Of a stretch of DNA of 64,000 nucleotides, positions 11,720 through 46,435 are shown one piece after another. The position numbers and the translations under genes were made by a program. Origin of the DNA: a virus; IMG/VR virus record IMGVR_UViG_3300042483_000504, positions 1 to 64,000 of that record; one strand, given 5' to 3'. Positions within the stretch are counted from its first letter, which is position 1. The number at the start of each line of letters is the position of its first letter. Below the pieces are notes generated by a model that worked only from the letters and a program-made list of their open reading frames with translations, was not told the origin of the DNA and did not search any database.

Positions 11720-11745
11720 CGAAATGACATTAATTGTCATATAAT

Positions 11746-11828
<83 letters not shown>

Positions 11829-11987: not shown

Positions 11988-12004
11988 CTTAAAAACAAAT
12001 AACT

Positions 12005-12403: not shown

Positions 12404-12488
12404 AAATCTAAACCAATTTGTTAAAAATTTTTCACTAACTATTGAACTTTTCAAAAAGTACAATATATTTAATAAAAAAGACAACACA

Positions 12489-12566: not shown

Positions 12567-12590
12567 TTCATTAAGATAAAATTTAAATGA

Positions 12591-12621
12591 AACCCTTCTC
12601 CAAAAGAGAGGGGTTTTTTTT
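12591..12621 (+). terminator. intrinsic terminator
   Basis: CCCTTCTC, loop CAAAA, GAGAGGGG followed by eight T. It ends the first part of the tRNA array. Confidence 0.85.
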
Positions 12622-12632
12622 GTGACCTAAGT

Positions 12633-12663
12633 TTGGCAAATCAAAATAAAAGTATTAGATTTG
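12633..12663 (+). promoter_or_regulatory. promoter of second tRNA operon
   Basis: TTG at 12633-12635, 20-base spacer, TAGATTTG at 12656-12663. Confidence 0.6.
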
Positions 12664-12683
12664 TAAGACAAAACAGAACAAGA

Positions 12684-12700
12684 GTTCATTGACATATTGG
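12684..12700 (+). promoter_or_regulatory. boxA-like stable-RNA leader element
   Basis: GTTCATTGACATATTGG, identical to 9357-9373. Confidence 0.55.
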
Positions 12701-12713
12701 AATAGAAGTAGAT

Positions 12714-12787
12714 ACCCTTGTGGTGGAAAGGTATACACGATAGTTTTAGAAACTATTTTTTTGTGGGTTCGAATCCCACCAAGGGTA
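12714..12787 (+). tRNA. tRNA-Leu(TAG) without long variable arm
   Basis: Acceptor ACCCTTG/CAAGGGT, anticodon stem ATAGT/ACTAT with loop TTTAGAA. The variable region is only six T, while leucine tRNAs normally have a long arm, so either the arm was lost or charging differs. Confidence 0.75.
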
Positions 12788-12873
12788 CTTCGTTATCACA
12801 TATCGGTTCGACTCCGGTACTGTCCGTGACGACGGGCGGTTAGTTTAATTGGCCTAAAACGTGAAACGTATTT
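12788..12873 (+). ncRNA. candidate circularly permuted tRNA
   Basis: The tRNA parts occur in the order 3' half, then 5' half. T arm ATCGG-TTCGACT-CCGGT (12802-12818) and acceptor 3' strand ACTGTCC (12819-12825) come first. After 8 bases follow acceptor 5' strand GGGCGGT (12834-12840), TA, and D arm GTTT-AATTGGCCTA-AAAC (12843-12860) with the conserved GG. The outer ends CGTTATCAC (12791-12799) and GTGAAACG (12861-12868) pair with one bulged A, as an anticodon stem should. The acceptor strands pair 7 of 7 including two G-T. The anticodon cannot be read because the break falls in its loop. Confidence 0.5.
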
Positions 12874-12947
12874 GGTTCAGTAGCTCAACAGGTGAGAGCA
12901 GGACGCTTATATCGTCAAGGTTGGGGGTTCAAATCCCTTCTGAACTA
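12874..12947 (+). tRNA. tRNA-Ile(TAT)
   Basis: Acceptor GGTTCAG/CTGAACT with a terminal G-T pair, anticodon loop CTTATAT on GACG/CGTC, T loop TTCAAAT. It reads ATA, a common codon in AT-rich phage genes. Confidence 0.82.
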
Positions 12948-12972
12948 CAGAAAAAAAAATATCACAAAGAGC

Positions 12973-13003
12973 TTGTGAGAACAAAAGAAAATGATTAGAT
13001 TTG
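12973..13003 (+). promoter_or_regulatory. promoter of third tRNA operon
   Basis: TTGTGAGAA at 12973 and TAGATTTG at 12996-13003. Confidence 0.6.
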
Positions 13004-13023
13004 TAAGACAAAAGAAAACAAAA

Positions 13024-13040
13024 GGTCTTTGACATATCGG
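13024..13040 (+). promoter_or_regulatory. boxA-like stable-RNA leader element
   Basis: GGTCTTTGACATATCGG, a close variant of the elements at 9357 and 12684. Confidence 0.5.
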
Positions 13041-13057
13041 AATAGAAAAAACAAAAT

Positions 13058-13131
13058 GTCGCGTTAGACGAGAGGTTTAAGTCGTCACCCTTTCAAGGTG
13101 AAAATCACGGGTTCGAATCCCGTACGCGATA
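13058..13131 (+). tRNA. tRNA-Glu(TTC)
   Basis: Acceptor GTCGCGT/ACGCGAT, anticodon stem TCACC/GGTGA with loop CTTTCAA, T arm ACGGG-TTCGAAT-CCCGT. Confidence 0.9.
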
Positions 13132-13233
13132 CAAAGGTCGGAGTAATTAACCGAACCCTAACAAGAAAATAAACATATTGCCTAAGGAAATTTGTCGACA
13201 CTAATTTCTGTTTATTGTTCTTGATTAATTACT
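13132..13233 (+). ncRNA. rod-like structured spacer overlapping the next tRNA
   Basis: AGTAATTAA (13142-13150) pairs perfectly with TTAATTACT (13225-13233), and AAGAAAATAAACA (13163-13175) pairs with TGTTTATTGTTCTT (13209-13222). The outer 3' strand shares six bases with the acceptor stem of the tRNA at 13228, so the two folds exclude each other. Confidence 0.55.
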
Positions 13234-13303
13234 TATGGTGTAAATTGGTTTGCACATCGCTCAAAAGGGCGAAGGGTTGTAGGTTCGAGTCCTATGGGTA
13301 ATT
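13228..13303 (+). tRNA. tRNA with irregular anticodon loop, possibly Leu(CAA)
   Basis: Acceptor ATTACTT/GGGTAAT, D stem GTG/CAC, T arm GTAGG-TTCGAGT-CCTAT are clear. The anticodon arm is TCGC-TCAAAAGG-GCGA with an 8-base loop, or TCGCT/GGCGA with 6 bases. The only T followed by a triplet gives CAA. The isotype is a guess. Confidence 0.6.
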
Positions 13304-13308
13304 CATAT

Positions 13309-13380
13309 CGCGGGTTGGGGGAGTGGTCACCCCGTTGGGCTCATAACCCAAAGACACAGGTTCGAATCCTGTACCCGCTA
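13309..13380 (+). tRNA. initiator tRNA-fMet(CAT)
   Basis: Anticodon stem TTGGG/CCCAA with three consecutive G-C pairs next to loop CTCATAA, and an unpaired 1-72 position (C1, T72). These are the two hallmarks of a bacterial initiator. Confidence 0.9.
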
Positions 13381-13571
13381 CTAAACAAGTGAAGACGGTG
13401 AGTAAACCCTCACTGTCTATAAATCCCAAGATGGTACTTGATTCGCGATAGTAAAGTATTGAGGGTAGAATTACTATAAGTCGGGGATTAGCTACCCCAA
13501 TGACGAAAATGTAATCACCGAGTAAAATTGGTTATGATGTGTAAAGGTCACGAAAAACTTGTTTTTATTAT
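13381..13571 (+). ncRNA. long structured spacer between tRNA-fMet and tRNA-Asp
   Basis: 191 bases without an ORF. Hairpins seen: GACGGTGAG/CTCACTGTC enclosed by CAAGT/ACTTG, ATAGTAA/TTACTAT, and GGGG-ATTAGCTA-CCCC. No known RNA family recognised. Confidence 0.5.
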
Positions 13572-13643
13572 GGTCTATTGGTGTAGTGGCTAACATACAT
13601 CCCTGTCACGGATGTGCCGCGAGTTCGATTCTCGCATAGACCG
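13572..13643 (+). tRNA. tRNA-Asp(GTC)
   Basis: Perfect acceptor GGTCTAT/ATAGACC, anticodon stem CATCC/GGATG with loop CTGTCAC. Confidence 0.92.
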
Positions 13644-13693
13644 CAAAATAAAGGAGTTATAACCCTTTATATGACAGGTTCGAAACTGTCGAT

Positions 13694-13766
13694 TGGATAT
13701 AGTGTAATGGAGCACGGATGATGGTAATACGGATTTCAGATTAAGGTTCGAACCCTTATTATTCAG
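13694..13766 (+). tRNA. degenerate tRNA-like element
   Basis: Acceptor TGGATAT/TTATTCA with one mismatch, D arm AGTGTAATGGAGCAC and T arm TAAGG-TTCGAAC-CCTTA are present and total length is 73, but no good anticodon stem forms. The best fit, CGGAT/ATACG, has a mismatch and lacks T33. An isolated T-arm-like hairpin (ACAG-GTTCGAAA-CTGT) lies just upstream at 13674. Confidence 0.45.
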
Positions 13767-13800
13767 CAAAGAGAAAAACAATTATTTGTCAATCTAAGTA

Positions 13801-13872
13801 ACTAGTGGTGTAAATTGGTCAACACATCTGACGTGGAGTCGGAAGCTTTAGGTTCGAGCCCTAACGATGGTG
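13801..13872 (+). tRNA. tRNA-like, anticodon unclear
   Basis: D arm GTGTAAATTGGTCAACAC closely matches the tRNA at 13228, and T arm TTAGG-TTCGAGC-CCTAA is intact. The acceptor ACTAGTG/CGATGGT has one mismatch. The anticodon stem TCTGA/TCGGA has loop CGTGGAG, which lacks T33; TGG (Pro) would be read by position. Confidence 0.5.
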
Positions 13873-14014
13873 AAATTATGATGGGTAATTCGTAGTTATT
13901 AGTTCAATATAGTAGCAATGTGACAATATTGGAACTGCAGTAAAAATATTGGTGAAGTTGAGTTTTACGTGGATTCGCGGTCTTAGGTAAAACGAATTAA
14001 TAACACTCTTAATT
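13873..14014 (+). ncRNA. multi-branched structured spacer
   Basis: GTTATTA (13895-13901) pairs with TAATAAC (13998-14004). Inside are AGTTC-ATAT/ATATT-GAACT and GTTTTAC/GTAAAAC hairpins, giving a three-way junction. AATTCGT (13888-13894) can also pair with ACGAATT (13992-13998), a crossing alternative. Confidence 0.55.
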
Positions 14015-14087
14015 GGTCTCTTAGTATAATGGCTTATTATTCTGGCTTTGTAACCCAGGGATAACGGTTCGAATCCGTTAGGGACCT
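14015..14087 (+). tRNA. tRNA-Thr(TGT)
   Basis: Acceptor GGTCTCT/AGGGACC, anticodon loop TTTGTAA on CTGG/CCAG plus one C-C mismatch, T arm AACGG-TTCGAAT-CCGTT. Confidence 0.87.
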
Positions 14088-14099
14088 CAACAATTAAAT

Positions 14100-14171
14100 G
14101 GACTATTAGCTCAGTGGTAGAGCACTCCGCTGTTAACGGATAGGTCGTAGGTTCGAATCCTACATAGTCCG
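14100..14171 (+). tRNA. tRNA-Asn(GTT)
   Basis: Acceptor GGACTAT/ATAGTCC, anticodon loop CTGTTAA on TCCG/CGGA, T loop TTCGAAT. Confidence 0.92.
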
Positions 14172-14180
14172 CAATAATTC

Positions 14181-14253
14181 GCCCCTATCGTTCAACTGTA
14201 TAGGACCAACCCCTTCTAAGGGTTTAATCGGGGTTAGAATCCCTGTAGGGGTA
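14181..14253 (+). tRNA. tRNA-Arg(TCT)
   Basis: Acceptor GCCCCTA/TAGGGGT, perfect anticodon stem AACCC/GGGTT with loop CTTCTAA. The T loop TTAGAAT has an A where C56 is expected. Confidence 0.87.
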
Positions 14254-14259
14254 CAAAAA

Positions 14260-14339
14260 GGACCTGTGGCGAAATTGGTATACGCGTCGTGTTTAAGCCG
14301 CGATTTTTAGGATTGAGGGTTCGACTCCCTCCAGGTTCA
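14260..14339 (+). tRNA. tRNA-Leu(TAA)
   Basis: Acceptor GGACCTG/CAGGTTC, anticodon stem TCGTG/CGCGA with loop TTTAAGC, longer variable arm, T arm GAGGG-TTCGACT-CCCTC. Confidence 0.88.
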
Positions 14340-14425
14340 CAATAGTGTCTCGGTACGCTCTGACTTGAAACATAGTACAACGTCGAGGTCTCGGTAGACA
14401 GAACGCGTCTGATTCTACCCAAATT
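14340..14425 (+). ncRNA. structured inter-tRNA spacer
   Basis: GGTAGA-CAGA-ACGCG-TCTG-AT-TCTACC (14393-14419) is a near-continuous hairpin, and CTCG/CGAG encloses an arm upstream. No ORF. Confidence 0.5.
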
Positions 14426-14498
14426 GCGGGTGTCGTATAGTGGCTTATTATATTAGACTTCCAATCTAAGGACGAGGGTTCGATTCCCCCCACCCGCT
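14426..14498 (+). tRNA. tRNA-Gly(TCC)
   Basis: Perfect acceptor GCGGGTG/CACCCGC, anticodon stem TTAGA/TCTAA with loop CTTCCAA. Confidence 0.92.
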
Positions 14499-14527
14499 CA
14501 ATAAAATAAACAGTATAACAGTCAGTT

Positions 14528-18517: not shown

Positions 18518-18689
18518 ATTACTCGATTTATTGGATGAGGTAAGGTCAACCAATTATATGATTGAATTACATTCATCAAACCCTGACAATATAAGTCAGT
18601 TTATGATAAGACAATACAAAACATTGAGAATAAAATATATAAAATTATTTAACACAAGAACAAATGGAAAGAAAATTAGCGAGTATTAG
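18504..18689 (+). CDS. small helical hypothetical protein
   Basis: 61 aa from MEKYELLDLLDEVRSTNYMI. The upstream extension to 18450 lies entirely inside the previous gene, so the ATG at 18504 is preferred. It overlaps the ligase gene start by 26 bases, which implies coupled translation. Confidence 0.6.
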   Translation: MEKYELLDLLDEVRSTNYMIELHSSNPDNISQFMIRQYKTLRIKYIKLFNTRTNGKKISEY

Positions 18690-19698
18690 ACAAATTTCTG
18701 ATTTAAGTCCAATCGAAGGGGCTGACAAAATTGAATTGGCAACAATTGACGGATGGAAAGTTGTTGTTGCTAAAGATGTAAATCATAAAGTAGGTGACTT
18801 AATTGTTTACTGTGAGGTTGACTCATTTTTACCTATTGAACCTGAGTTTGAATTTTTACGTAAGAGTTCATACAAAAAAATGGCGGACGGTAATGAAGGT
18901 TTCCGTTTGAAAACAATCAGATTACGAGGTCAAATCTCTCAAGGGTTAATCTTACCCCTTAAAGAGGCTTACGATGTTTTCAAAAGAAACACACCGAATA
19001 TGGATATGGGTTGGTTTGAAGGTCTTGACGTAACAGAAATGTTAAACATTGTGAAATACGAACCACCAATTCCCGCACAATTGGCAGGACAAGTTAAAGG
19101 TAATTTTCCTTCATTTTTAAAGAAAACTGATGAAGAAAGAGTTCAAAACTTGACAAAAGAATACCCTATCTACAAATTGGCGAAATTCTACGTAACTGAG
19201 AAATTAGATGGTTCTAGTGTAACTTACTACGTTAAAGACGGGGTATTTGGAGTGTGTTCAAGAAACTTGGATTTATTGGAGGATGTGAACAATTCTATGT
19301 GGAAATTCGCAATCGAATCAGGATTACGTGATAAGTTGGTTGGATTGGAGAAAAACCTTGCGGTACAAGGTGAAATCATCGGTGAAGGAATTCAAGGAAA
19401 TCCTTACCAACGTATTGGTCAAACAGTTAGAATATTCAACGGATTTGATATTGACAAGTACGACTATTTATCGTTAGATGATTTGCTTGAATTGACTAAA
19501 ATTTTGGAAGTGAAAACGGTTCCAATTCTCGACTTAGATTTTACATTACCTGAAACAATTGATGAATTATTGTTAATGGCTGAAGGTAAGTCTGTTTTAA
19601 ATATTAAAACCGAAAGAGAGGGGCTAGTTATTCGTTCACACGACAGAAAAATCAGTTTCAAAGCAATCTCTAATAAATTCTTATTAAATGAGAAATGA
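18664..19698 (+). CDS. RNA ligase, DRB0094 (Rnl5) type
   Basis: 344 aa. N-terminal OB-like domain (KVVVAKDVNHKVGDLIVYC), then a nucleotidyltransferase core: Lys180 in TEKLDGSS is the predicted AMP acceptor, with GVCSRNLDL (motif III), EGLVIRSHD (motif IV) and SFKAISNKF (motif V). The domain order matches the Deinococcus DRB0094 family, which seals nicks with a 3'-OH RNA strand. It is the first of two RNA ligases here, next to a large tRNA array. Confidence 0.9.
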   Translation: MERKLASIRQISDLSPIEGADKIELATIDGWKVVVAKDVNHKVGDLIVYCEVDSFLPIEPEFEFLRKSSYKKMADGNEGFRLKTIRLRGQISQGLILPLKEAYDVFKRNTPNMDMGWFEGLDVTEMLNIVKYEPPIPAQLAGQVKGNFPSFLKKTDEERVQNLTKEYPIYKLAKFYVTEKLDGSSVTYYVKDGVFGVCSRNLDLLEDVNNSMWKFAIESGLRDKLVGLEKNLAVQGEIIGEGIQGNPYQRIGQTVRIFNGFDIDKYDYLSLDDLLELTKILEVKTVPILDLDFTLPETIDELLLMAEGKSVLNIKTEREGLVIRSHDRKISFKAISNKFLLNEK

Positions 19699-20648: not shown

Positions 20649-21704
20649 ATGAAAGCAACTTTAGAAAAATATTACAATGATGGGTTATTGTACAAACAAG
20701 TACATCCAACTTTACCATTAACCATATGGAATTACACTGAGAAAGTTCAGTTTGAGAACTTATGGGATGAGGTGACTTTGATGTGTCGTGGTTTAGTAAC
20801 TGACGACAACGGTAATATAGTTGCAAGACCATTTAGAAAATTCTTCAATATGGAGGAAGGTAAACACACCCCAACTGATGATTTCAAAGTCTATGAGAAA
20901 ATGGATGGTTCATTGGGGATATTATTCCACTACGAAGGGGAATGGGTTATGGCAACTCGTGGTTCATTTACTTCCGACCAAGCGGTGAAAGGTATGGAAA
21001 TGTTATCTAATTATGATTACAACAAATTACATAAAGACTTCACTTACTTATTTGAAATAATATATGCTGAAAACAGAATAGTTTGTTCATATGATTTTGA
21101 AGATGTTGTTTTACTTGGCTCGACAAACACTAAACACGGATATGAAGTAAACTTACACGGGGATTTAGATATGAGAATACAAAATCTTATACGAAATATC
21201 GGTTTAAAAGTTGTTAAACGTTACGATGGTATATCTGACTATTCTGTGTTAAAACAAATGGTTAGAGACGACGCTGAAGGGTTTATAGTGTTATTCTCAA
21301 ATGGTGATAGAATGAAAGTTAAAGGTGTGGAATACTTACGTCTACATAAAATAATGACTAACGTATCTACTACCGGTATATGGGAATGTTTGAGAAATGG
21401 TGATGATGTTTTAGAAATGATGAAAGAAGTTCCTGATGAATTCTATTCTAAAATAAAATCTTACGTTAAAGATTTGAGATACGCTCACTATTCAATATCT
21501 GAATATTGTGGTAAAATGCACGATGGGTTTAGATACGGGAAATATGGTGATGTTGACCCTGAACCAACTAAGAAAGAATACGCAGAGTTTGTTATGAAAA
21601 ACATAAAAGAAGGACTTAGAGGTGTGATGTTTCAAATGTGGGATAAAAAAGATTACGACGAAACTATATGGAGACTAATAAGACCTGAGTTCAAAAAGTT
21701 ATAA
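20649..21704 (+). CDS. RNA ligase, T4 Rnl1-like
   Basis: 351 aa. Lys84 in VYEKMDGSLG is the predicted adenylated residue. The preceding CRGLVTDDNGNIVARPFRKF and the following MATRGSF, YLFEIIYAENRIV and EGFIVLFSNGDRMKVK fit motifs of the T4 Rnl1 tRNA-repair ligases. T4 Rnl1 reseals tRNA cleaved by the host PrrC anticodon nuclease. No polynucleotide kinase is visible in the window, but phosphoesterase and cyclic-phosphate genes precede it. Confidence 0.9.
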   Translation: MKATLEKYYNDGLLYKQVHPTLPLTIWNYTEKVQFENLWDEVTLMCRGLVTDDNGNIVARPFRKFFNMEEGKHTPTDDFKVYEKMDGSLGILFHYEGEWVMATRGSFTSDQAVKGMEMLSNYDYNKLHKDFTYLFEIIYAENRIVCSYDFEDVVLLGSTNTKHGYEVNLHGDLDMRIQNLIRNIGLKVVKRYDGISDYSVLKQMVRDDAEGFIVLFSNGDRMKVKGVEYLRLHKIMTNVSTTGIWECLRNGDDVLEMMKEVPDEFYSKIKSYVKDLRYAHYSISEYCGKMHDGFRYGKYGDVDPEPTKKEYAEFVMKNIKEGLRGVMFQMWDKKDYDETIWRLIRPEFKKL

Positions 21705-24050: not shown

Positions 24051-24950
24051 AATTTGATTATCCGTTCAGAATGTTTGATGATGAGACCCTTGTGGTTGAT
24101 TTTGAGTAACAAACTGATAAAGATATTGGCCGTGTATGGTCATTAAATAAACTACGAAAGTAGGATAAAGTGGACCCCCAAGTGTAACGGGTCTGCGTCT
24201 TGGGAAACCGAGGTCGAGTACACAAGCGGGATACCGTATAACCTTTAGTATCGAGGTCAACGATGTAGAGAAAGTGGTTATATGATTTGGTGATGTGGGT
24301 CATCAGATTGAGGAGGGAACTCTAATAGGAATAACTCGTAGGATTTATGTAAGAAGTATCGTATCCAACGTTACAATTACGACTTCCATTATAAGAGGTG
24401 GCTTAAAACCGAAAGGTATGAAAACAAACAGGTGGTGCTGAAATTTTCCTTGATGATTCTTTACCAAAAGAATTGTTTCGAAGTAATCTTAAAATATTGA
24501 GGTAGGGATACTTCACAGAGTAGTTTGGTATTTCGTTGTTCAAAAGACGACGAATCTGAAAGACGGACCACTACTTTGATTAATCCACAACACGAAAAAC
24601 TTTATTTTACTAGGTTAATGTAAAAATTAAAATTTAAACTAAAGCAAAAGTGTCCGTCAGATATCAACGAAAGGTGTCTACATAGTAATGAGTTGTTCAT
24701 TGCACAGGATGACCGCAAGTCTGAATGTATTCTTACCAAAAACCTCTAATCTCGCAAGGATTAGTCGGGGAGGCATTCTCGAAGAGAGTTGAGTAATGAG
24801 AGAGTAGTTGATGTCTCAAGGAGTGGTTCACCTAAAAAACCGACACTGAGGAATACTTTTCAAAAGAAAGTGGATACGAAGGGAAACAATAATCCTTCCA
24901 AAGGTTCTCAATAACAGGTATAATCTCAGCCTTTTTTAAAGCCAAATATA

Positions 24951-25021
24951 GCAGGGGGGAGGTAAGGTATCTCATCGGTCTCATAAGCCGACCCAAACAG
25001 GTTCGATTCCCGTCCGTTGCT
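24951..25021 (+). tRNA. tRNA-Met(CAT)-like fold inside the giant RNA
   Basis: Anticodon stem TCGGT/GCCGA with loop CTCATAA, T loop TTCGATT on ACAGG/CCCGT with one mismatch, acceptor GCAGGGG/CCGTTGC with one G-G mismatch, and a short D arm. T8 is missing. It may be a degenerate tRNA or a tRNA-shaped domain of the large RNA. Confidence 0.55.
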
Positions 25022-25816: not shown

Positions 25817-26204
25817 TGGTGGAGATAGAGGGAGTCGAACCCTCGTGTTGTACACCTTAAAGACTAAGGACTACACGCTTAGGATAACATTTTCTAATGT
25901 TCCAAAAATAGTAAGTTTGTTCTTCATCATCGTAAACTAACAACCAATGAATGACTCGATTTCGGGTTCAGTCATTTTTCCACCTTTGTAAAGACTTCTG
26001 TTCCTAGGTTATATGTCCATCGACCCGTTAGTGTCTTCCTAAGCTTAGGCAGCTACTGCAGCGTCTTCACGGATTAATCCGATAGTCGCCATTTTGTTTA
26101 AAACGTTGCCGTTTGTAATTTGATACCATAGATTTAAGTGATAGGAATCTTCTCACTGCGTGCCCCGAATAATTAACAATGCCAGTCAATTCCAAGTTAT
26201 CCCC
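25817..26204 (-). ncRNA. ssrA: transfer-messenger RNA (tmRNA)
   Basis: 388 nt. 5' GGGGATA pairs with 3' TATCTCC, discriminator A and encoded CCA, T arm GAGGG-TTCGACT-CCCTC. The internal reading frame ends with codons for EDAAVAA and TAA (26047-26045), matching the Ala-Ala ends of proteolysis tags. If the frame resumes at the GGC at 26110-26108, as Bacteroidota tags often begin with Gly, the tag is about 21 residues. The sequence between tag and tRNA-like ends is rich in helices, as expected. Its own promoter and boxA-like leader lie upstream. tmRNA rescues stalled ribosomes and marks the peptide for Clp proteases. Confidence 0.92.
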
Positions 26205-28888: not shown

Positions 28889-28917
28889 AAAAAGGGGTTA
28901 TTCAGCCCCTTTTTTCT
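28889..28917. terminator. bidirectional intrinsic terminator
   Basis: AAAGGGG, loop TTATTCAG, CCCCTTT with A and T runs on both sides. The loop holds the stop codon of the convergent Clp gene. Confidence 0.8.
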
Positions 28918-30979
28918 TTCTACCTCTTTTAGGTTTATCTTCTATTTTAGTTTCTTCAATCTTAATTTCTTTATCAACTACGATTAGGTTATATAACCCG
29001 TCTTCAACTAAAGAACCCTTTAATACTTCTTCTGAGATATAATCCTCAATCTTATCTTGGATTGCTCTTTTCAAAGGTCTAGCACCATATATTTCATCGT
29101 ACCCAACTTCAGAGATTAAATCAATAACTGACTCATCAAATGTAAAGTTATATTTTAAACCTGTTAATCGTTTTTGTAATCTATCAACTTCCAAGTAAAC
29201 AATTTTCTTAACATCTTCACGATTTAATGATTTAAATACAACAACCTCATCAATACGATTTAAGAACTCAGGTGCGAAAAACTTTTGAAGTTCTTTCTTC
29301 AACATATCTCGTTTTTGTTCTTCTTCAACATATGATTTAGCAACAGTCCCAAAACCAATTCCTGTTCCAAAGTCTTGTAATTTTCTAACCCCAATATTTG
29401 AAGTCATAATTATTACACAATTCTTGAAATTGATTTTTCTACCTAAACTATCTGTTAAGTGTCCATCATCCAATACTTGAAGTAATGTTGAGAAAATGTC
29501 TTTGTTCGCTTTCTCTACCTCATCAAATAAAATCACCGAGTAAGGTTTGTTTTTAACTTGTTCAGTTAATTGACCCCCTTCTTCGTGACCAACATATCCC
29601 GGAGGTGAACCGATTAATCTTGAGATATTATGTTTCTCTTGATATTCTGACATATCAATTCTAATTAACGCATCTTCAGTACCAAAAATCTGTTTAGCCA
29701 ATTGTTTTGCTAAGTGAGTTTTACCTACACCTGTTGAACCAAGGAATATGAATGAACCAATTGGTTTATTCGGGTCCTTAATCCCTAAACGATTTCGTCT
29801 GATTGATTTAGCAATTTTAGACACCGCTTCAGGTTGACCAATAACTTTTTCATTTAAGTTACCTTCCATTTCACTCAATGATTTAGTTTCATCTGCATTT
29901 AATTTGGAAATTGGAATTTTTGTCATATTGGAAACAACATCATAAACAAGTTCAGGACTAATTTCTTTACGTTGTTTATTTAAATCTTCCTCAAATTTCT
30001 TTTTCTCGTTCTCCAATTTATTTAGGATACGTTTTTCTTTGTCTCTTAAATTTGCGGCCTCTTCATAGTCTTGACGTTTAACAACATCCAACTTTTCTTG
30101 TTTAATGTTAAGAGCATCTAATTTAAGTTTTTCAATCTCTTCAGGGATTTTAACTTCCACTTGACTACGAGCACCAACCTCATCAATAATGTCGAATGCT
30201 TTATCAGGGAATTCTCTATCTGTGATATACCTTTCAGCTAAATCAACACATAAAGTTAATACCTCATCAGAATAAACTACTTTGTGATAATTTTCGTATT
30301 TATCTTTTGCGTTTTTAAGGATTTGTAATGTCTCTTCTTTAGTTGCGGAATCAACAATTACCTTTTGGAAACGTCTTTCTAACGCACCATCCTTTTCGAA
30401 GTTTTTACGATATTCATCTAAGGTTGTCGCACCAACACATTGTATTTCCCCCCTTGCTAACGCAGGTTTGAAGATATTAGACGCATCCATAGAACCTGAC
30501 GCATTACCCGCACCAACAATCGTATGGATTTCATCAATGAATACAATGATACTTGGGTTGTTTTGTAATTCCTCAATAATCACTTTCATTCTTTCTTCGA
30601 ATTGTCCTCGGTATTTTGTTCCGGCAACAATCGAAGTCATATCTAACGACACAATTCGTTTATCCATTAAATTTCTCGGACATTCACCATTAAAAATTTT
30701 AATAGCTAATCCCTCAACTATTGCAGTTTTACCACAACCTGGCTCACCGATAACAATTGGGTTATTTTTCTTTCTTCTTGATAAAATTTGAGCAATACGA
30801 GTAATCTCCCTATCTCGTCCAATAACAGGGTCCAATTTACCTTCTTCTGCTAATTTAATCAAATCACGACTAAAATTATCTAATACAGGTGTTGTGGAAC
30901 CACCGCTTGATTTACTTTTACCTTTACCATCGTTATCTACTGATTCAATCATATTCTTTTTTTTAATTAAGTATAACAT
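28898..30979 (-). CDS. ClpC-type AAA+ unfoldase lacking the N domain
   Basis: 693 aa. Two AAA+ modules: Walker A at 78-85 (GEPGCGKT) with B at 146-150, and Walker A at 414-421 (GSTGVGKT) with B at 483-487. A UVR-like coiled segment (about 295-325) and an IGF loop (541-543 in GTGIGFGT) indicate docking to ClpP. The usual Clp N domain is replaced by a short Lys/Ser-rich start, so adaptor and substrate choice may differ. An in-frame ATG at 30952 (MIESVDND) is an alternative start. No ClpP gene is visible, so it would work with host ClpP. It lies 2.7 kb from the phage tmRNA. Confidence 0.92.
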   Translation of the reverse strand: MLYLIKKKNMIESVDNDGKGKSKSSGGSTTPVLDNFSRDLIKLAEEGKLDPVIGRDREITRIAQILSRRKKNNPIVIGEPGCGKTAIVEGLAIKIFNGECPRNLMDKRIVSLDMTSIVAGTKYRGQFEERMKVIIEELQNNPSIIVFIDEIHTIVGAGNASGSMDASNIFKPALARGEIQCVGATTLDEYRKNFEKDGALERRFQKVIVDSATKEETLQILKNAKDKYENYHKVVYSDEVLTLCVDLAERYITDREFPDKAFDIIDEVGARSQVEVKIPEEIEKLKLDALNIKQEKLDVVKRQDYEEAANLRDKEKRILNKLENEKKKFEEDLNKQRKEISPELVYDVVSNMTKIPISKLNADETKSLSEMEGNLNEKVIGQPEAVSKIAKSIRRNRLGIKDPNKPIGSFIFLGSTGVGKTHLAKQLAKQIFGTEDALIRIDMSEYQEKHNISRLIGSPPGYVGHEEGGQLTEQVKNKPYSVILFDEVEKANKDIFSTLLQVLDDGHLTDSLGRKINFKNCVIIMTSNIGVRKLQDFGTGIGFGTVAKSYVEEEQKRDMLKKELQKFFAPEFLNRIDEVVVFKSLNREDVKKIVYLEVDRLQKRLTGLKYNFTFDESVIDLISEVGYDEIYGARPLKRAIQDKIEDYISEEVLKGSLVEDGLYNLIVVDKEIKIEETKIEDKPKRGRKKKGAE

Positions 30980-36838: not shown

Positions 36839-38605
36839 ATGAGTTTAACAAAAGACCAAGTATTATTGGAATATGTCAAATGTATGAAAGACACGTCTTA
36901 CGCATTAAAAACGTATCTACAGACATATGACAACACAGTTTCAAAATACGTTCCATTAGAGTTATTCCCTGACCAAATTACGTTACTACAGGATTATGAA
37001 GACTACAATGAGAATATCGCATTAAAATATCGTCAGGCAGGTGTATCGACAGTTACCGCCGCTTGGATATCAAAAAAATTAGCATTCGCAAGAAAAGAAA
37101 AACCTGAAAAAATTCTAATCATCGCCAACAAACTTGATACGTCAATTGAAATGGCTAACAAAGTTAGAATGTTCACAACACAATGGCCAAGTTGGGTAAA
37201 CATAGGTATTGACCCTAACAAAAAATCAACAAAACATTGGAAATTAAATAATGGTTGTGAAGTTAAAGCCGTTGCAACATCAAAGGATGCTTTACGTGGA
37301 TTTACCCCTACGATATTAGTATTTGATGAGGCCGCGTTTATCGAAGCCGATAGTGACTTCTGGTCAGCGTGTATGGCGTCCCTATCAACAGGGGGTAAAG
37401 TAATTGTGGTTTCAACACCTAATGGTAATGACCCAATTTATTATGAGATTTATGACCAAGCATTACGTGGAATGAATGATTTCAAAATTACGGAAATGTA
37501 TTGGTATCGGGACCCTCGTTATACTAAAGATTTATTCTTTGTTAAAACTGAAGACGCAATTCATTACTTATTACATAAAGAAGAATATGACCCAACAAAA
37601 ATAATTAGTTGGTCCGAAAAATCATTTGATGAAAGAAACTTTGAGGAAGCCAAAGAATTAATTAATAATGGTTACAAACCTTGTTCCGATTGGTTTGAAA
37701 AAATGGTTAAGAAACTTAAATACGATAAACGTAAAGTTTCCCAAGAGTTAGAGTGTAACTTCCTTGGTTCGGGGGATAATGTATTCGATTCTCGATTAAT
37801 GCAAAAAATCCGTGAAAATTATTTATTGGAACCTCAAAACAGAATGTTAGGTAATCAATTGTGGATTTGGAAAGAACCTGTTGTTGGTCACAAATATATA
37901 ATGGGTGTCGATGTCAGTCGTGGGGATAGTGAGGATTTTAGTTCATTTCAAATTGTTGATTTTGACACTCGTGAACAAGTTGCCGAATTCGTAGGTAAAT
38001 TACCCCCCGATACTATGGCCGAGATTTGTTATAAATGGGCTAATATGTATTCAGCATATATCGTAGTCGATATCACGGGTGGGATGGGTGTTTCCACATC
38101 ACGTAAACTACAAGAGTTAGGTTATAAGGACCTATATGTTGATGGTGAAGATATGAATAATAGTTGGAAGTATAATCCTAAATCCGCAGAAAAGATACCG
38201 GGAATTAACTTTAACAATAAACGTGTTCAGATTATTGCGTCATATGAAGAGGCAATGAGACACGATTTCCGAATTTATAGTCATCGTTTATATAATGAAA
38301 TGGATACGTTTATTTACATTAATGGTAGACCTGACCACCAGAAAGGAAGACACGACGATTTACTTATGTCGATTGCAATGGCGACATATGTGGGGGAAAC
38401 TTCATTTAGTAAATTAACTAAAGTGACTGAACAAGCAAAAGCAATGATTGAGTCTTGGTCGGTTAATGATAATAATTCTGTTAGAGATAACATATCATTC
38501 AATCCCGTAGTTCCAAATATGATGGATAGAATGAACAATAATAACGCCGTGTCATCACAAGATTACCAAACTTATGGTTGGTTATTTGGGACAGGTAGAA
38601 GATAA
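36839..38605 (+). CDS. terminase large subunit (T4 gp17-like)
   Basis: 588 aa. N-terminal ATPase: RQAGVST (65-71) as the Walker A variant typical of phage terminases and ILVFDEAAF (159-167) as Walker B with the catalytic Glu, then VVSTPNG. C-terminal RNase H-like nuclease: MGVDVSRGDSEDFSSFQIVD, IVVDITGGMG and the final HDDLLMSIAMA supply the metal-binding aspartates. Length fits T4 gp17. It drives DNA into the prohead. No small terminase subunit was recognised in the window. Confidence 0.96.
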   Translation: MSLTKDQVLLEYVKCMKDTSYALKTYLQTYDNTVSKYVPLELFPDQITLLQDYEDYNENIALKYRQAGVSTVTAAWISKKLAFARKEKPEKILIIANKLDTSIEMANKVRMFTTQWPSWVNIGIDPNKKSTKHWKLNNGCEVKAVATSKDALRGFTPTILVFDEAAFIEADSDFWSACMASLSTGGKVIVVSTPNGNDPIYYEIYDQALRGMNDFKITEMYWYRDPRYTKDLFFVKTEDAIHYLLHKEEYDPTKIISWSEKSFDERNFEEAKELINNGYKPCSDWFEKMVKKLKYDKRKVSQELECNFLGSGDNVFDSRLMQKIRENYLLEPQNRMLGNQLWIWKEPVVGHKYIMGVDVSRGDSEDFSSFQIVDFDTREQVAEFVGKLPPDTMAEICYKWANMYSAYIVVDITGGMGVSTSRKLQELGYKDLYVDGEDMNNSWKYNPKSAEKIPGINFNNKRVQIIASYEEAMRHDFRIYSHRLYNEMDTFIYINGRPDHQKGRHDDLLMSIAMATYVGETSFSKLTKVTEQAKAMIESWSVNDNNSVRDNISFNPVVPNMMDRMNNNNAVSSQDYQTYGWLFGTGRR

Positions 38606-38654: not shown

Positions 38655-40508
38655 ATGGAAAACAATAATCAAAATTTGACAGTTTGGCAACGATTGTCCC
38701 AAGCATTTGGGCCTAACTCGTTGTTAAATCAAGATTACCCAACATATAAGTTCGACAAAAAAGAATTGTTAAAAACAACTTCTAAAGCCGATTATGAGAG
38801 GGAAAAGTTACAAGCACAACAAACGGTTTATTTAGGTCACCAATGGTCTAAAATCGAAACAAACTTATACTCACAAGCAATCTATTATGAACCAACACGT
38901 TTGGCGTCATTCTATGATTATGAATCTATGGAATACACACCTGAAATTTCCGCAGCGTTAGACATTTATGGGGAAGAATCAACAACAGTTGACCAAAACG
39001 GTTATATGTTACAAATCTACTCAGAGTCAAAACGTATTAAATCAATTTTAACGGATTTATTCAACAATATCTTAGACATTAATACCAACTTACCAATGTG
39101 GGTTAGAAACACCTGTAAATACGGGGATAACTTTGTTTATTTGAAGTTAGATGCTGAGAAAGGAATCGTTGGTTGTATGCAATTACCAAATATCGAAATT
39201 GAACGTTTAGAACGTGGTATGGCAGCAAGAACTCAGAATGTTGAAGAACCGGCTGAAAGTAAAGGTCTAAGATTTAAATGGAAGGTTAAGGATATGGAGT
39301 TTAACTCTTGGGAAATCGCTCACTTCCGTTTATTGGGGGATGATAGAAAACTTCCATATGGTACATCAATGTTAGAGAAAGCAAGACGTATTTGGAAACA
39401 ATTATTATTGTCTGAGGATGCTATGTTAATTTATAGAACATCAAGAGCCCCTGAAAGACGTGTTTTTAAAGTATTCGTTGGTAATATGGATGATAAGGAT
39501 GTTGAACCATACGTACAACGTGTCGCTAACAAATTTAAACGTGACCAAATTGTTGATAGTAAAACAGGTAACGTTGATATGAGATATAATCAAATGGCAG
39601 TAGACCAAGATTATTTTATCCCTGTTCGTGACCCAGCAGCACCAAGTCCAATTGAAACATTACCGGGAGCACAAAACTTAGGTGAGATTGCCGATATCGA
39701 ATATATCCAAAAGAAATTATTAACGGCATTACGTGTTCCAAAAGCATTCTTAGGATTTGAGGAACCTGTTGGTGAAGGTAAAAACTTGTCATTAATGGAT
39801 ATTCGTTTCGCAAGAACAATAAATAGAATACAAAAATGTATGATTGCGGAAATGAATAAAATCGCGGTTATCCATTTATTTTTATTAGGATTTGAAGACG
39901 AATTATCCAACTTTACTTTAGGATTAGCGAATCCATCAACACAAGCCGACTTATTAAAAGTTGAGGCGTGGAAAGAAAAAATTACATTATACAAAGATGC
40001 CGTTGCGGCAATTGAAGGTATCGCACCTGTATCAGTATCTTGGGCTAAAAAACATATCCTTGGATTCTCTGATGATGAAATTAAATTAGACTTACAACAA
40101 CAACGTGTTGAAAAAGCGGTTGGGGCTGAATTAACAAATACCGCAACATTAATCACACATACAGGTATCTTTGATAATATTGATAAATTATACGGAACTA
40201 AAAACACTTCAGGAGCGACTCAAACCGCAGCCGCAGGTGCTACACCACCACCACCACCTCCAGGAGGAGGGGGAGGAATGCCCGATTTAGGTGGCGGAGG
40301 AGGTGAACCATCAGCACCACCACCCCCAGGTCCTGAACCGGGAGGTGAAGCAGGTGTTACCCCTGAATCATATGAAAGACGAGATAATTTAAAAATATTA
40401 GTGGAAAATGAAGATTTATTAAACGAAGAAACGTTCATTGATTTATCTAAAGCGAGAAATTCTTTAGGTGATATGGAAAGTCAACTGAACAAACTTCTAA
40501 GAGATTGA
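38655..40508 (+). CDS. portal vertex protein (T4 gp20-like)
   Basis: 617 aa. TPEISAALDIYGEEST, MWVRNTCKYGDNFVYLKLD, WEIAHFRLL, RAPERRVFKVFVGNM and KKLLTALRVPKAFLGFEEP are characteristic of gp20-type portals. The C-terminus after residue 530 is a Pro/Gly-rich linker plus a charged helix, an extension beyond the typical portal core. It follows the terminase by 49 bases, the standard order. Confidence 0.95.
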   Translation: MENNNQNLTVWQRLSQAFGPNSLLNQDYPTYKFDKKELLKTTSKADYEREKLQAQQTVYLGHQWSKIETNLYSQAIYYEPTRLASFYDYESMEYTPEISAALDIYGEESTTVDQNGYMLQIYSESKRIKSILTDLFNNILDINTNLPMWVRNTCKYGDNFVYLKLDAEKGIVGCMQLPNIEIERLERGMAARTQNVEEPAESKGLRFKWKVKDMEFNSWEIAHFRLLGDDRKLPYGTSMLEKARRIWKQLLLSEDAMLIYRTSRAPERRVFKVFVGNMDDKDVEPYVQRVANKFKRDQIVDSKTGNVDMRYNQMAVDQDYFIPVRDPAAPSPIETLPGAQNLGEIADIEYIQKKLLTALRVPKAFLGFEEPVGEGKNLSLMDIRFARTINRIQKCMIAEMNKIAVIHLFLLGFEDELSNFTLGLANPSTQADLLKVEAWKEKITLYKDAVAAIEGIAPVSVSWAKKHILGFSDDEIKLDLQQQRVEKAVGAELTNTATLITHTGIFDNIDKLYGTKNTSGATQTAAAGATPPPPPPGGGGGMPDLGGGGGEPSAPPPPGPEPGGEAGVTPESYERRDNLKILVENEDLLNEETFIDLSKARNSLGDMESQLNKLLRD

Positions 40509-40530: not shown

Positions 40531-41247
40531 ATGAAATTTGGAATATTAAAATCGAAAATTGAAAACGTATTACTTGAGTCTTATAAAAACGGGACATTTA
40601 AAGAAGAATTAAAAAACTTCGATAAATACGTATTAAAGAACAAAAACGTTAGTAAATTATTTTATTTATATGATGACTTATCATCTAATAAAGGACTAAA
40701 CGAATCCGTTGTTGACGATTACATTAATGAGTCAATTAAATTGTTTGAGAACACTATTAATAAAATTGACCCGTCTGAAATGAAGAAATTATCATTATGG
40801 GTTAAAAATAGTAAATCAAATAATCAATATGAAACAATTGATTCATTATTTAGTACAGGTGTATTAACGATTGAAAGTAGAATTAAAAGTAAAAAACTTA
40901 TTTCTGAATCTTTATCTAAATTCCCTGTAAAACAGAAAGACGTGGTAAATGTCCCAATAAGTTCTATGATTTCTATGGCGAACAAAACTATCTCAAAACA
41001 TATTGAGGGGTTAAATGAATCTGAAAAGAAAGAATTTAATCAATTACTATCGGTTGACGATACTGAGTTAGAACCAAAGTATTCTACAATTAAAGAAAGT
41101 GTGGTTGAAAGATTAAACACTATGTATAATCAAAATCACGACAACTCAACTAGAAACGCAATCAATGAAACAATTGAAAAACTTTCAACTGAGAAATATG
41201 ATAAATTAAATTATTACAAACTTAAAAGTTTATACGAAAATCTTTAA
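40531..41247 (+). CDS. helical head-module protein
   Basis: 238 aa, almost entirely helical and Lys/Asn/Ser-rich. Contains KSKKLISESLSKFPV, GLNESEKKEFNQLL and AINETIEKLS, several of which fit (I/L)xE sites. Its place between portal and prohead protease matches the small core proteins gp67/gp68 of T4, but sequence similarity is not evident. The end overlaps the convergent bS21 gene by 4 bases. Confidence 0.65.
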   Translation: MKFGILKSKIENVLLESYKNGTFKEELKNFDKYVLKNKNVSKLFYLYDDLSSNKGLNESVVDDYINESIKLFENTINKIDPSEMKKLSLWVKNSKSNNQYETIDSLFSTGVLTIESRIKSKKLISESLSKFPVKQKDVVNVPISSMISMANKTISKHIEGLNESEKKEFNQLLSVDDTELEPKYSTIKESVVERLNTMYNQNHDNSTRNAINETIEKLSTEKYDKLNYYKLKSLYENL

Positions 41248-41438
41248 TCTTTGTTTGATTTATACATTTTTTGAACGTACTTAGCTTTGTTAAGTACGTT
41301 TCTTTTTTTAACCGAAGTTTTAACGAACTCTTTTCTATTTACCAACTCGGACATTTGTCTCGTCTTAATAATCTTACTTTTGTATTGTTTTAACGCCCTT
41401 TCGATGTTTTTATCTTTTCCTACTTTTACTATTAGCAT
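41244..41438 (-). CDS. rpsU: ribosomal protein bS21
   Basis: 64 aa. MLIVKVGKDKNIERALKQYK, KIIKTRQMSEL, RKEFVKTSVKKRNVLNKAKY and VQKMYKSN match bS21 over its whole length, including the Bacteroidota-type start. bS21 sits near the mRNA exit and the anti-Shine-Dalgarno end of 16S rRNA; in flavobacterial ribosomes it helps occlude that end. A phage copy could replace the host protein and shift initiation. The leader is A-rich with no Shine-Dalgarno sequence. It is alone on the minus strand inside the head operon. Confidence 0.9.
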   Translation of the reverse strand: MLIVKVGKDKNIERALKQYKSKIIKTRQMSELVNRKEFVKTSVKKRNVLNKAKYVQKMYKSNKD

Positions 41439-41529
41439 ATTAATTTTTTGTTAAATTATGAGGTTTTTGACTCTTATTGTAAATATACTTACATTTAATA
41501 AAAATAAACGTTATACAATATGAAAAATA

Positions 41530-42000
41530 ATGAAAAAAGGGAAAACCTCAAAAATCCAAGGTTTTAAAACTGCGAAAGTTTTATACGGAACAGTTGATTC
41601 ATTGAATTTAAAATCACTATACCTAAACATACAAACTTGGGTCGAACCTAAAAAAGACGTTGATAATTGGTCACGAGTTGTACTTAACTTAAGCAGAGCG
41701 ATTAAACATTCAGTTTACGAAAAAACTAAAAACACAATATTTGATGATAAATTTATCGTCGACTTAGATTTAAGGTCAAGTGGTTTAAATCTAAATAAAA
41801 AATCGTTTATGAATCTTGAGATTAATTTTTACATTAACGATACCACATTAAATTTTAAAGATAGAATGGTTAAAGATACTCTAAAAGATATTACTTCACA
41901 AATATTTTTAGATAATTTTAAAACAAACCCCCATTTTAAATTTTACTTATCCAAAAACATTAAAACACCCAAAGAAACGATACAAACCGAAGATGTTTAA
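41530..42000 (+). CDS. hypothetical protein
   Basis: 156 aa starting MKKGKTSKIQGFKTAKVLYG. Basic first third, then NWSRVVLNLSRAIKHSVYE and a beta-rich middle. Divergent from bS21 with about 90 bases between; a TATATTTA box in that gap faces bS21. It precedes the prohead protease by 22 bases. No family recognised. Confidence 0.65.
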   Translation: MKKGKTSKIQGFKTAKVLYGTVDSLNLKSLYLNIQTWVEPKKDVDNWSRVVLNLSRAIKHSVYEKTKNTIFDDKFIVDLDLRSSGLNLNKKSFMNLEINFYINDTTLNFKDRMVKDTLKDITSQIFLDNFKTNPHFKFYLSKNIKTPKETIQTEDV

Positions 42001-42022: not shown

Positions 42023-42745
42023 ATGAGTTTAAAAATTTTAAACCCTAATGAAACAGGTAGGGGAATATTAATAGAATATGATGCGGGATTTATTTCCCCA
42101 AAGACTGAGAGTAATTCTTACATTATGGAATCTAAAAGTTTTTTAGACCATTCTAAACCATTCGAATTTTACGCAGTTTTACAAAAATACAATACACCAA
42201 ACAGAAATGGTAGAGTTTATCCTGAACGTATTTTAAAACGTGAAGCGGATAACTACAAAAAAATGATTGATAAAGGGGTGGCACTTTCAGAGTTAAACCA
42301 CCCTGAATCTTCTTTAATTGATTTGGACCGTGTTTCACATATGATTACAGAAGTATGGTGGGAAGGTAATGTATTAATGGGTAAATTAAAATTACTTACA
42401 AGCCCAGGATTTCACGAGAGAGGTATTGTATCAACTAAAGGTGATATGGCGGCTAACTACCTAAGACAAGGTGTTACTTTAGGTATTTCATCAAGAGGGG
42501 TTGGTTCACTTAAAAAAGTCGGAGAACAAAATGAAGTTCAAGATGATTTCGAATTAATTTGTTTTGACTTAGTATCATCACCGTCAACACCGGGGGCTTA
42601 TTTATTCTTAGACCCTAACGATAGAATGAAGTTTGATGAAAACATCGAAGAAGAAAATCAATCAAGAAAAGAAAAAGAATTAGAAGGAGGTAATAAATCG
42701 CTTGACTTAATGAAGAAATTGAACGATTATTTGGGAAACAGATAA
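42023..42745 (+). CDS. prohead core protease (T4 gp21-like)
   Basis: 240 aa. ELNHPESSLIDLDRVSHMI carries the catalytic His, LGISSRGVGSLKKVG the catalytic Ser, and CFDLVSSPSTPGAYLFL the conserved C-terminal block of the gp21/U9 prohead proteases. These cut scaffold and head proteins after (Leu/Ile)-x-Glu during maturation. Such sites occur in the major capsid protein and in many tagged proteins of this window. It is directly upstream of scaffold and capsid genes, as in T4. Confidence 0.93.
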   Translation: MSLKILNPNETGRGILIEYDAGFISPKTESNSYIMESKSFLDHSKPFEFYAVLQKYNTPNRNGRVYPERILKREADNYKKMIDKGVALSELNHPESSLIDLDRVSHMITEVWWEGNVLMGKLKLLTSPGFHERGIVSTKGDMAANYLRQGVTLGISSRGVGSLKKVGEQNEVQDDFELICFDLVSSPSTPGAYLFLDPNDRMKFDENIEEENQSRKEKELEGGNKSLDLMKKLNDYLGNR

Positions 42746-44632: not shown

Positions 44633-46435
44633 ATGGGAGCATTATTAGAATCAGGTCTTGTAGGTAACATCGGGTTAAAACACCTTAAAGTTATCAAAGA
44701 AGATACAATCAACAAATGGGACAAATTAGGTTTCTTAGAAGACTTATCAGGTCACTTAAAAGAAAACGTAGCTCAATTATATGAGAATCAAGCGTCTTTC
44801 TTAATTAACGAGGCAACTTCAGAAGGTTCAAACGGAGCGTTTGAAACTGTAGTTTTCCCTATCGTTAGACGTGTATTCTCTAAATTATTAGCGAATGATA
44901 TCGTTTCTGTACAAGCAATGAACTTACCAATCGGTAAATTGTTCTACTTCGTACCTAAAATTCAAGGTTACAACAATGGTAACGAACACTTTAAACCATT
45001 TGGAGCTCCGGACGGACCTGCATCAGTAGGTGCTGGATATGGTGATGGTTCTACTTATGGTAACAAAAATCTTTATGATTTATTTTATGAAGGTGCTGAA
45101 CCAGGATTGGACCCAGCAGGTTTGTTCGATTACTCAAAAGGTTCTTTTGAAGTAATTACTGCAGACACAAGAGTTCAAATTTGGTCAGGTTCTGAATTAG
45201 TTGACCAAACTGACCAATTAGATGGTGAAACTGTAAGAAAAGTAATTATCAAATTATCAGGTTTTGCTGAAACAGGAGCGGGTAAATTAATCGGACCTAA
45301 CGGTAACGAAATGGATACTGAAGAATTTTTATCTGACTTAATCATCACTAAAGGTGCTGGTTTATCAATCGACGTTGATTCAGCTTGTGCGGTTGCCGCT
45401 AACACACCATTATTATTTAGAGTTGTTACACAACAATATGGTAAAGGTATCGTTCAATATGGTAACACAGTTAATACAACATTCGCAACTACAGGAAATG
45501 GTGGTTCATTCAAAAATATTTGTGACGCAAATGGTTTCATCTATTTAGAAGTGGATTTATCTTGTCCAGCTTGTGTTGGTTGTGGTGCTGACACATTAGA
45601 TGGTTACACAGGAACAACTATCGTTTCTGCAGACACTACTGACTCTTTCGTAGCAGTATTTAAACGTTACGAAGAATTAGAATTCGAAGACAGAATTGGT
45701 GAGGTATCTTTTGACTTAGAGTCAGTTACAGTATCAGTTACTGAAAGAAAATTAAGAGCACAATGGTCACCTGAGTTAGCTCAAGACGTTGCGGCTTTCC
45801 ATAACATCGACGCTGAGGCTGAGTTAACTGCATTGTTATCTGAACAAGTTGCGGCTGAGATTGACCGTGAAATTTTACGTGACTTACGTAAAGGAGCGGC
45901 TTGGAATTTACGTTGGGATTACAACGGATGGAGAAGAATCCAACAAACAACATCTTATACTCAAAAAGATTGGAATCAAACGTTGATTACGGCTATTAAC
46001 CAATTATCAGCACAAATTCACAAATCTACATTGAGAGGTGGAGCTAACTGGATTGTTGTTTCTTCTGAAGTTTCAGCTATCTTTGACGATTTAGAATACT
46101 TCCACGTATCTAACGCGTCTCCTGAGCAAGACCAATACAATATGGGTATTGAAAGAGTTGGTACATTAGCAGGTCGTTACCAAGTTTACCGTGACCCTTA
46201 CTTCCCATCAAACACAGTATTGATTGGACACAAAGGAACATCATTGTTAGACACAGGTTACATCTACGCACCATACGTACCGTTACAATTAACTCCAACA
46301 ATGTATAACCCATTCAACTTTACACCTATCAAAGGTATAATGACGAGATACGCTAAGAAAATGGTTAATAACCGTTTCTACGCGAGAATCACAGTTGATG
46401 GTGTTCGTACATTCGACTTGAAAGAATTGAGATAA
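44633..46435 (+). CDS. major capsid protein (T4 gp23-like)
   Basis: 600 aa. The N-terminal helical prodomain ends at SFLINE-ATSEGSNG (Glu60-Ala61), the expected gp21 cleavage site, like the site near residue 65 of T4 gp23. VVFPIVRRVFSKLLANDIVS, MNLPIGKLFYFVPK, KRYEELEFEDRIGEVSF and the C-terminal PTMYNPFNFTPIKGIMTRYA are typical of gp23. Codons are visibly more biased than in neighbouring genes, as in highly expressed genes. A Cys-rich loop near 305-318 (CPACVGCG) is unusual. Confidence 0.95.
   Translation: MGALLESGLVGNIGLKHLKVIKEDTINKWDKLGFLEDLSGHLKENVAQLYENQASFLINEATSEGSNGAFETVVFPIVRRVFSKLLANDIVSVQAMNLPIGKLFYFVPKIQGYNNGNEHFKPFGAPDGPASVGAGYGDGSTYGNKNLYDLFYEGAEPGLDPAGLFDYSKGSFEVITADTRVQIWSGSELVDQTDQLDGETVRKVIIKLSGFAETGAGKLIGPNGNEMDTEEFLSDLIITKGAGLSIDVDSACAVAANTPLLFRVVTQQYGKGIVQYGNTVNTTFATTGNGGSFKNICDANGFIYLEVDLSCPACVGCGADTLDGYTGTTIVSADTTDSFVAVFKRYEELEFEDRIGEVSFDLESVTVSVTERKLRAQWSPELAQDVAAFHNIDAEAELTALLSEQVAAEIDREILRDLRKGAAWNLRWDYNGWRRIQQTTSYTQKDWNQTLITAINQLSAQIHKSTLRGGANWIVVSSEVSAIFDDLEYFHVSNASPEQDQYNMGIERVGTLAGRYQVYRDPYFPSNTVLIGHKGTSLLDTGYIYAPYVPLQLTPTMYNPFNFTPIKGIMTRYAKKMVNNRFYARITVDGVRTFDLKELR

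Follow-up and report, generated by a model that had tools for sequence, protein, structure and literature searches.

A phage bS21 gene that looks blind to host feedback and carries an antisense terminator-like structure

We describe a phage gene for ribosomal protein bS21 (64 amino acids; 41244–41438, minus strand) that carries a terminator-like structure under selection on the opposite strand of its 3′ half, and that lacks the strong Shine-Dalgarno (SD) sequence found before rpsU, the host bS21 gene, in Flavobacteriales. The window, i.e., the whole stretch of DNA analyzed, comprises 64,000 nucleotides (positions 1 to 64,000 of IMG/VR record IMGVR_UViG_3300042483_000504, itself a 66381-base piece of a virus). 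The explanation that we favor, and consider moderately probable, is that the phage bS21 escapes the feedback acting on the host copy and replaces that copy, and that the same gene houses an antisense terminator.

A divergent bS21 gene among the head genes

The 64-residue protein is the translation of the open reading frame at 41244–41438(−), and its identification draws on a Pfam match, a solved relative, a clade test and synteny. It matches PF01165 (Ribosomal_S21) with an E-value of 1.4e-7 and 31.6 bits against a cut-off of 27 bits (residues 4–55, profile positions 2–53 of 55). The closest solved relative is 7jil_z, a bS21 of the F. johnsoniae type (E-value 1.4e-9, residues 1–59). Under the NCBIfam equivalog TIGR00030 it reaches 16.8 bits and misses the cut-off of 28.95, and is thus a divergent protein; two host bS21 proteins score 54.7 and 61.9 bits, and other phage copies 19.3, 24.2 and 29.8 bits. 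Codon comparisons show that phage bS21 is under purifying selection: none of 550 pairs has a dN/dS of 1 or more, and the ratio of summed dN to dS is 0.248. The Pfam match, the synteny described below and purifying selection rule out a chance reading frame.

In a tree of bS21 proteins of at least 58 amino acids, a single branch (support 100/99) splits all 65 distinct phage proteins from 98 Bacteroidota proteins. Judged by this tree, the window gene belongs to a phage-only bS21 clade; the inner branches are weak because there are few alignment columns. Residues 5, 21, 23, 24, 27, 28 and 30 separate phage from Flavobacteriales proteins almost completely; K17, K22, T26, K40 and S42 are common to both. 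Tyr54, or an equivalent residue, is characteristic of the Bacteroidota-type bS21 that hides the anti-SD. The window protein has Tyr54 (codon at 41277–41279), and 65 of 67 distinct phage proteins have Tyr, His or Phe at this position (Tyr in 50, His in 14, Phe in 1). The two proteins in which the residue is missing, in L036 (from 929) and L142 (from 1458), are shortened to 44 and 50 amino acids, represent five loci, and are either broken genes or assembly errors.

These observations bear on a simple alternative, which we hold to be possible though doubtful: the phage may do no more than supplement the bS21 supply when late protein synthesis is intense, without competing with or silencing the host copy. 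Purifying selection and the conserved family features would fit such a simple replacement, as would the report by Chen et al. (2022; PMC9723584) that the gene is expressed late. However, a separate clade with fixed differences exceeds what a borrowed host gene would need.

The gene neighborhood is that of a T4-type head module, with the order TerL, portal, “up,” bS21, “down,” protease, major capsid protein (MCP). All of these except bS21 lie on the plus strand: the terminase large subunit TerL (36839–38605; PF03237, 1.9e-12), the T4-type portal protein (38655–40508; PF07230, 3.6e-78), the convergent hypothetical gene “up” (40531–41247, 238 amino acids), the divergent hypothetical gene “down” (41530–42000, 156 amino acids), the S77 prohead protease (42023–42745; PF03420, 1.7e-23) and the gp23-type MCP (44633–46435; PF07068, 9.5e-74). 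In a greedy open reading frame call (72 genes), bS21 is the sole minus-strand gene between 30979 and 47909, which bears out the preliminary description of a gene standing alone on that strand within the head genes. The arrangement is general. Among 89 related viral loci fetched with bS21 queries (loci from other retrievals being left out), bS21 is on the strand opposite to every recognized neighbor in all 89: TerL in 70 of 70, portal in 85 of 85, “up” in 87 of 87, “down” in 85 of 85, protease in 79 of 79 and MCP in 53 of 53. Homologues of “up” and “down” are thus present in 87 and 85 of the 89 loci, respectively. Two loci, L041 and L042, have a phage-type bS21 within a different gene neighborhood.

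bS21(−) and gene 41530(+) diverge from a 91-nucleotide intergenic region (41439–41529) that holds putative promoter elements. On the minus strand, the bS21 leader has the element TATATTTA (41480–41487), whose core is shared with the ATATTTAT motif of many phage leaders and which is possibly part of a promoter. It also has the block AGTCAAAA (41465–41472), which reads TTTTGACT on the plus strand and might serve as the −35 element of gene 41530; the plus strand of this block has TTGACT at 41467, with TACATT 17 nucleotides on. Of 38 phage gene leaders with at least 25 non-coding nucleotides, 11 carry ATATTTAT, an enrichment over the shuffled mean of 0.77; the motif lies mostly at −19 to −33. At −49 the bS21 leader carries TATATTTAC; it has ATATTTAC and lacks the complete motif. 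Of 75 distinct phage bS21 leaders, 47 contain TATATTT[AG] and 69 contain GTCAAAA. Scans for promoters of the sigma-70 type found no more than in shuffles, so the case for promoters is drawn from the ATATTTAT leader motif and from leader conservation, which suggest that the block may consist of overlapping divergent promoters.

Several features elsewhere in the window deserve mention. A GOLLD RNA (24516–24932, plus strand; RF02032, 316 bits, full model) lies directly before a tRNA-Met (24948–25021). A tmRNA is found at 25817–26204(−) with Rfam RF00023 (74.5 bits) and has no ARAGORN report. There are 25 tRNA genes in the whole window, 24 of them in a cluster at 9620–14499(+); promoter-like sites of the form TTG-N-TAnnTTTG, which differ from the ATATTTAT leaders, occur in or before this cluster at 9068, 9314, 10873, 12633 and 12973. 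Downstream of the cluster lie two different RNA ligases (18664–19698 and 20649–21704, plus strand; PF09414, PF09511) that perhaps serve tRNA repair. An archaemetzincin-like metalloprotease is encoded at 8487–9059(+) (PF07998, 1.2e-9). A Clp/Hsp100 AAA+ ATPase of 693 amino acids (28898–30979, minus strand), whose best NCBIfam matches are ClpB and ClpA, both below their cut-offs, contains a GIGFG stretch that we take to recall the ClpP-docking loop. The ATPase could be the protease partner that, in the speculation of McNutt et al. (2023; PMC9976891), removes bS21.

An antisense terminator-like structure within bS21

The genes bS21 and “up” converge without a gap. Read directly from the sequence, the TTAA palindrome at 41244–41247 is common to both stop codons, and in 112 of 117 distinct genes the stop codon overlaps in the same four-nucleotide manner with that of a convergent frame 90 or more codons long. 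Such an exact overlap leaves no room for a terminator between the two genes. In L041 and L042 the stops are 13–32 nucleotides apart, and the gap holds an inverted-repeat terminator. In the window, a terminator-like hairpin of 13 pairs with a loop of 3, together with a T run, lies inside bS21 itself (41273–41309, plus strand). It starts 25 bases past the “up” stop, antisense to bS21 codons 46–56, and was assessed by scan, fold, synonymous null and covariation. The form is that of an intrinsic terminator, i.e., a stable stem-loop (41273–41301) with a T run, CTTTTTTT, directly after it. The region 41248–41330 folds at −17.3 kcal/mol (z −3.64). Between 36500 and 47500 this hairpin has the most pairs among the terminator-like sites, and the next two plus-strand sites trail the protease unit and MCP. 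The number of such sites in that region, six, is not above that in shuffles (5.1), so the case for a terminator depends on comparison between phages.

That comparison shows an antisense terminator-like structure under selection. Of 80 distinct phage genes, 32 have a strict hairpin with T run, compared to 139 of 8000 shuffles of synonymous codons in which the amino acids were fixed; none of 80 host rpsU genes has one. When terminators are scored by folding, 63 of 119 distinct genes have one at −11 or better versus 23 of 1785 synonymous shuffles; this threshold was adopted after −6 had proved unspecific (487 of 2400 shuffles pass). The 63 fall at codons 46–56 and nearby (34 genes), 47–61 (19) and 37–52 (10). 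A strong predicted antisense terminator is absent from 52 of the 112 genes with the stop overlap.

Could the hairpin be a by-product, without a role of its own, of the conserved amino acids KKRNVLNKAKYVQK? The K-rich stretch does yield the T run for free. However, of 3200 synonymous shuffles that preserved the protein only 2 matched the observed hairpin, the stem shows compensating changes, and in other clades a different hairpin is located elsewhere; we regard a by-product as very improbable. In 18 distinct sequences of class A (counts exclude L207, whose hairpin is elsewhere), 97.4% of the cells are paired and three pairs are altered on both sides. L152 has a shifted stem. The covariation score exceeds that of all 500 shuffles and collapses in slid controls. 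Of its sub-counts, the number of pairs changed on both sides is matched by 29 of 500 shuffles, and the number of further pair types is not above shuffles.

The strand on which the structure acts can be read from the wobbles. Cells with a G-U wobble that is possible on the antisense RNA only number 67, versus 2 for the sense RNA only, and because these wobbles fit the antisense RNA, selection acts on the plus-strand transcript. A hairpin working instead on the sense strand within the bS21 mRNA, e.g., as a control element, would draw some support from the folding of the sense RNA, at −5.5 to −14.0 kcal/mol. The antisense RNA is nevertheless the more stable in 14 of 14 haplotypes, and the antisense side carries the T run. 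On the wobble and stability evidence we rejected the sense-strand hairpin as the selected structure, and a sense-strand role is improbable.

The stem includes codon 54, which pairs with codon 48, so a swap between Tyr54 and His54 is matched at codon 48. Codons 48/54 read GTG/CAC or ATG/CAT in all 22 His54 genes among the 80 distinct genes, and GTA/TAC or GCA/TAC in the 12 class A genes with Tyr54. Within this 80-gene set, the change from Tyr to His at the anti-SD contact is found only in stem-bearing genes (19 strict, 3 shifted or imperfect). On the tree of “up” proteins, His54 needs six changes, four of them forced by well-supported branches, a number that would drop if phages swapped bS21.

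We infer from these patterns that the bS21 gene may have a second job at the DNA level: the other strand of its 3′ half would be the intrinsic terminator of the convergent TerL–portal–“up” transcript and would end that transcript in the cell. Separate units ending at such sites would agree with the separate transcripts of Chen et al. (PMC9723584). Two consequences follow for existing data. Part of the C-terminal conservation that these authors read as ribosome function can stem from the terminator, and unstranded RNA reads across bS21 can derive from the head operon.

A leader without a Shine-Dalgarno sequence

Is the phage gene under the same control as its host counterpart? We measured SD strength by pairing the final 25 bases of each leader with a presumed 16S tail and taking the duplex energy, with host rpsU as positive control. 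The 91-nucleotide leader of the window gene has no SD (best duplex +1.6 kcal/mol); with the Pfam match, this upholds the earlier reading of a 64-residue phage bS21 with an SD-less leader of its own. By contrast, all 78 distinct Flavobacteriales rpsU leaders are at −17.5 kcal/mol or stronger (median −19.8). The median of 74 distinct phage bS21 leaders is −2.2 kcal/mol, the best is −12.5 and none reaches −13; in an enlarged set of 119 distinct leaders, the median is −3.0, with 12 at −8 or lower and again none at −13. If the tail is five bases long, 5 of 85 phage leaders equal the weakest host leader; with three longer tails, none does. In L252, L260, L323, L346 and L364, AGGAGG occurs approximately 16 nucleotides before the bS21 start, i.e., as a partial SD at unusual spacing.

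In F. johnsoniae, rpsU has an extended SD and is translated by ribosomes lacking bS21, which creates a feedback loop (McNutt et al. 2023; PMC9976891). The preliminary description was right that bS21 helps to hide the anti-SD in flavobacterial ribosomes (PMC9976891). The window gene lacks the extended SD (pairing below −13 kcal/mol) of autoregulated rpsU genes. Because its leader has no SD and the anti-SD-hiding Tyr54 is usually kept, the phage copy seems insensitive to the feedback of the host. Among rpsU genes of the wider Bacteroidota, 18 of 30 reach −13 kcal/mol, in a control set where some start codons are uncertain; the argument is therefore strongest for a Flavobacteriales-like host.

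The absence of an SD is not peculiar to bS21 within the phage. The 72 phage genes of the window have a median of −1.8 kcal/mol (1 of 72 at −8 or lower), and 210 leaders of host genes beside rpsU have a median of −1.5 kcal/mol (2 of 210 at −8 or lower). Since host and phage genes are alike SD-free, the missing SD sets phage bS21 apart from host rpsU, the single host gene controlled through SD feedback, and gives phage mRNA no general advantage over host mRNA.

This weighs on the proposal that phage bS21 makes a selective ribosome, shifting the choice of mRNA towards phage transcripts (Chen et al. 2022; PMC9723584). A similar idea, that the phage copy reprograms initiation towards A-rich, SD-free leaders, had been put forward in the preliminary description. 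Phage leaders are indeed somewhat richer in A (0.50 in the window versus 0.38 beside host rpsU), and the near-fixed phage-specific changes at residues 21–30 lie in the N-terminal helix region, where Chen et al. place the binding of mRNA. However, phage and host leaders are SD-free to the same degree, the chemistry of residue 54 is kept, and no other common translation signal was found in phage leaders. Because both kinds of mRNA are SD-free and Tyr54 or His54 is kept, leader type does not divide phage from host mRNA. Reprogramming is thus not needed and, as originally worded, is not supported, and a graded preference for A-rich leaders is possible; a selective ribosome in the full sense is, in our judgment, rather unlikely.

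In the explanation that we favor, feedback escape with replacement of the host copy, phage bS21 would most likely take the place of the cell's own bS21 in the 30S subunits of a Bacteroidota host, as Tyr54/His54 and the overall similarity suggest, and would keep the 3′ tail of 16S rRNA hidden as host bS21 does. Since the phage mRNA is without an SD, it should be translatable on ordinary, bS21-filled ribosomes, unlike host rpsU, and might in this way escape the limiting feedback. Filling of bS21-free 30S subunits by the phage protein should lower the SD-dependent translation of rpsU, and with less host rpsU translated, the phage protein would, late in infection, gradually supplant its host counterpart. 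It is tempting to go further, though we offer this only tentatively: the host feedback may be turned on itself, a feedback-blind bS21 re-hiding the anti-SD, shutting off host bS21 synthesis and converting the ribosome pool one way, while the head-operon terminator sits antisense in the same gene, so that RNA pairing, and not only ribosome function, would set Tyr versus His at residue 54. The contrast between an SD-driven host rpsU and an SD-less phage bS21 is directly testable.

Comparison with known systems

Among the ribosomal protein genes of phages, bS21 is reported to be the most frequent (PMC9723584; PMC9976891). The arrangement described here is known from the literature: Chen et al. 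(2022; PMC9723584) report it in 47 phage genomes with predicted Bacteroidetes hosts. They observe an aromatic residue or His at position 54, and propose that phage bS21 enters ribosomes and favors phage transcripts. The window resembles their freshwater Bacteroidetes myophages (clades a–e) in the reverse-strand bS21 between two hypothetical genes, with TerL, portal, protease and MCP near, in the aromatic or His residue 54, and in the separation of phage from bacterial bS21; both flanking genes fit the description of their “bS21_CN” (fam498). Their genomes are 293–331 kb, compared to the 66381-base record here. The preliminary description, partly supported overall, had overlooked both this publication and the antisense terminator.

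The main text of Chen et al. (PMC9723584) does not use the words “terminator,” “promoter,” “antisense” or “hairpin”; the terminator was measured here. In the accessible text of that paper, leaders are not compared with those of host rpsU, the comparison made here, and read mapping is not described as strand-specific. Within the literature text searched, neither an antisense terminator nor an SD-less phage bS21 as an escape from rpsU feedback was found described. As far as this literature shows, the SD contrast with host rpsU and the antisense terminator are new.

Like F. johnsoniae rpsU (McNutt et al. 2023; PMC9976891), the window gene encodes a bS21 with Tyr54 and belongs to an SD-poor translation system; unlike it, the phage gene has no extended SD. 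McNutt et al. suggest that the feedback is a host counter-defense; our suggestion is that the phage copy does not respond to it. Pelagibacter phage HTVC008M also encodes a bS21, which is reported to enter E. coli ribosomes (Mizuno et al. 2019, via PMC9723584 and PMC9976891); its host belongs to another phylum, and we liken it to the present gene by description, not by sequence. Finally, the hairpin with its T run resembles the intrinsic terminators between or at the ends of convergent bacterial genes, as these are described in the sources at hand, but here the structure is embedded in the protein gene of the opposite strand, and it covaries with a residue that has a function.
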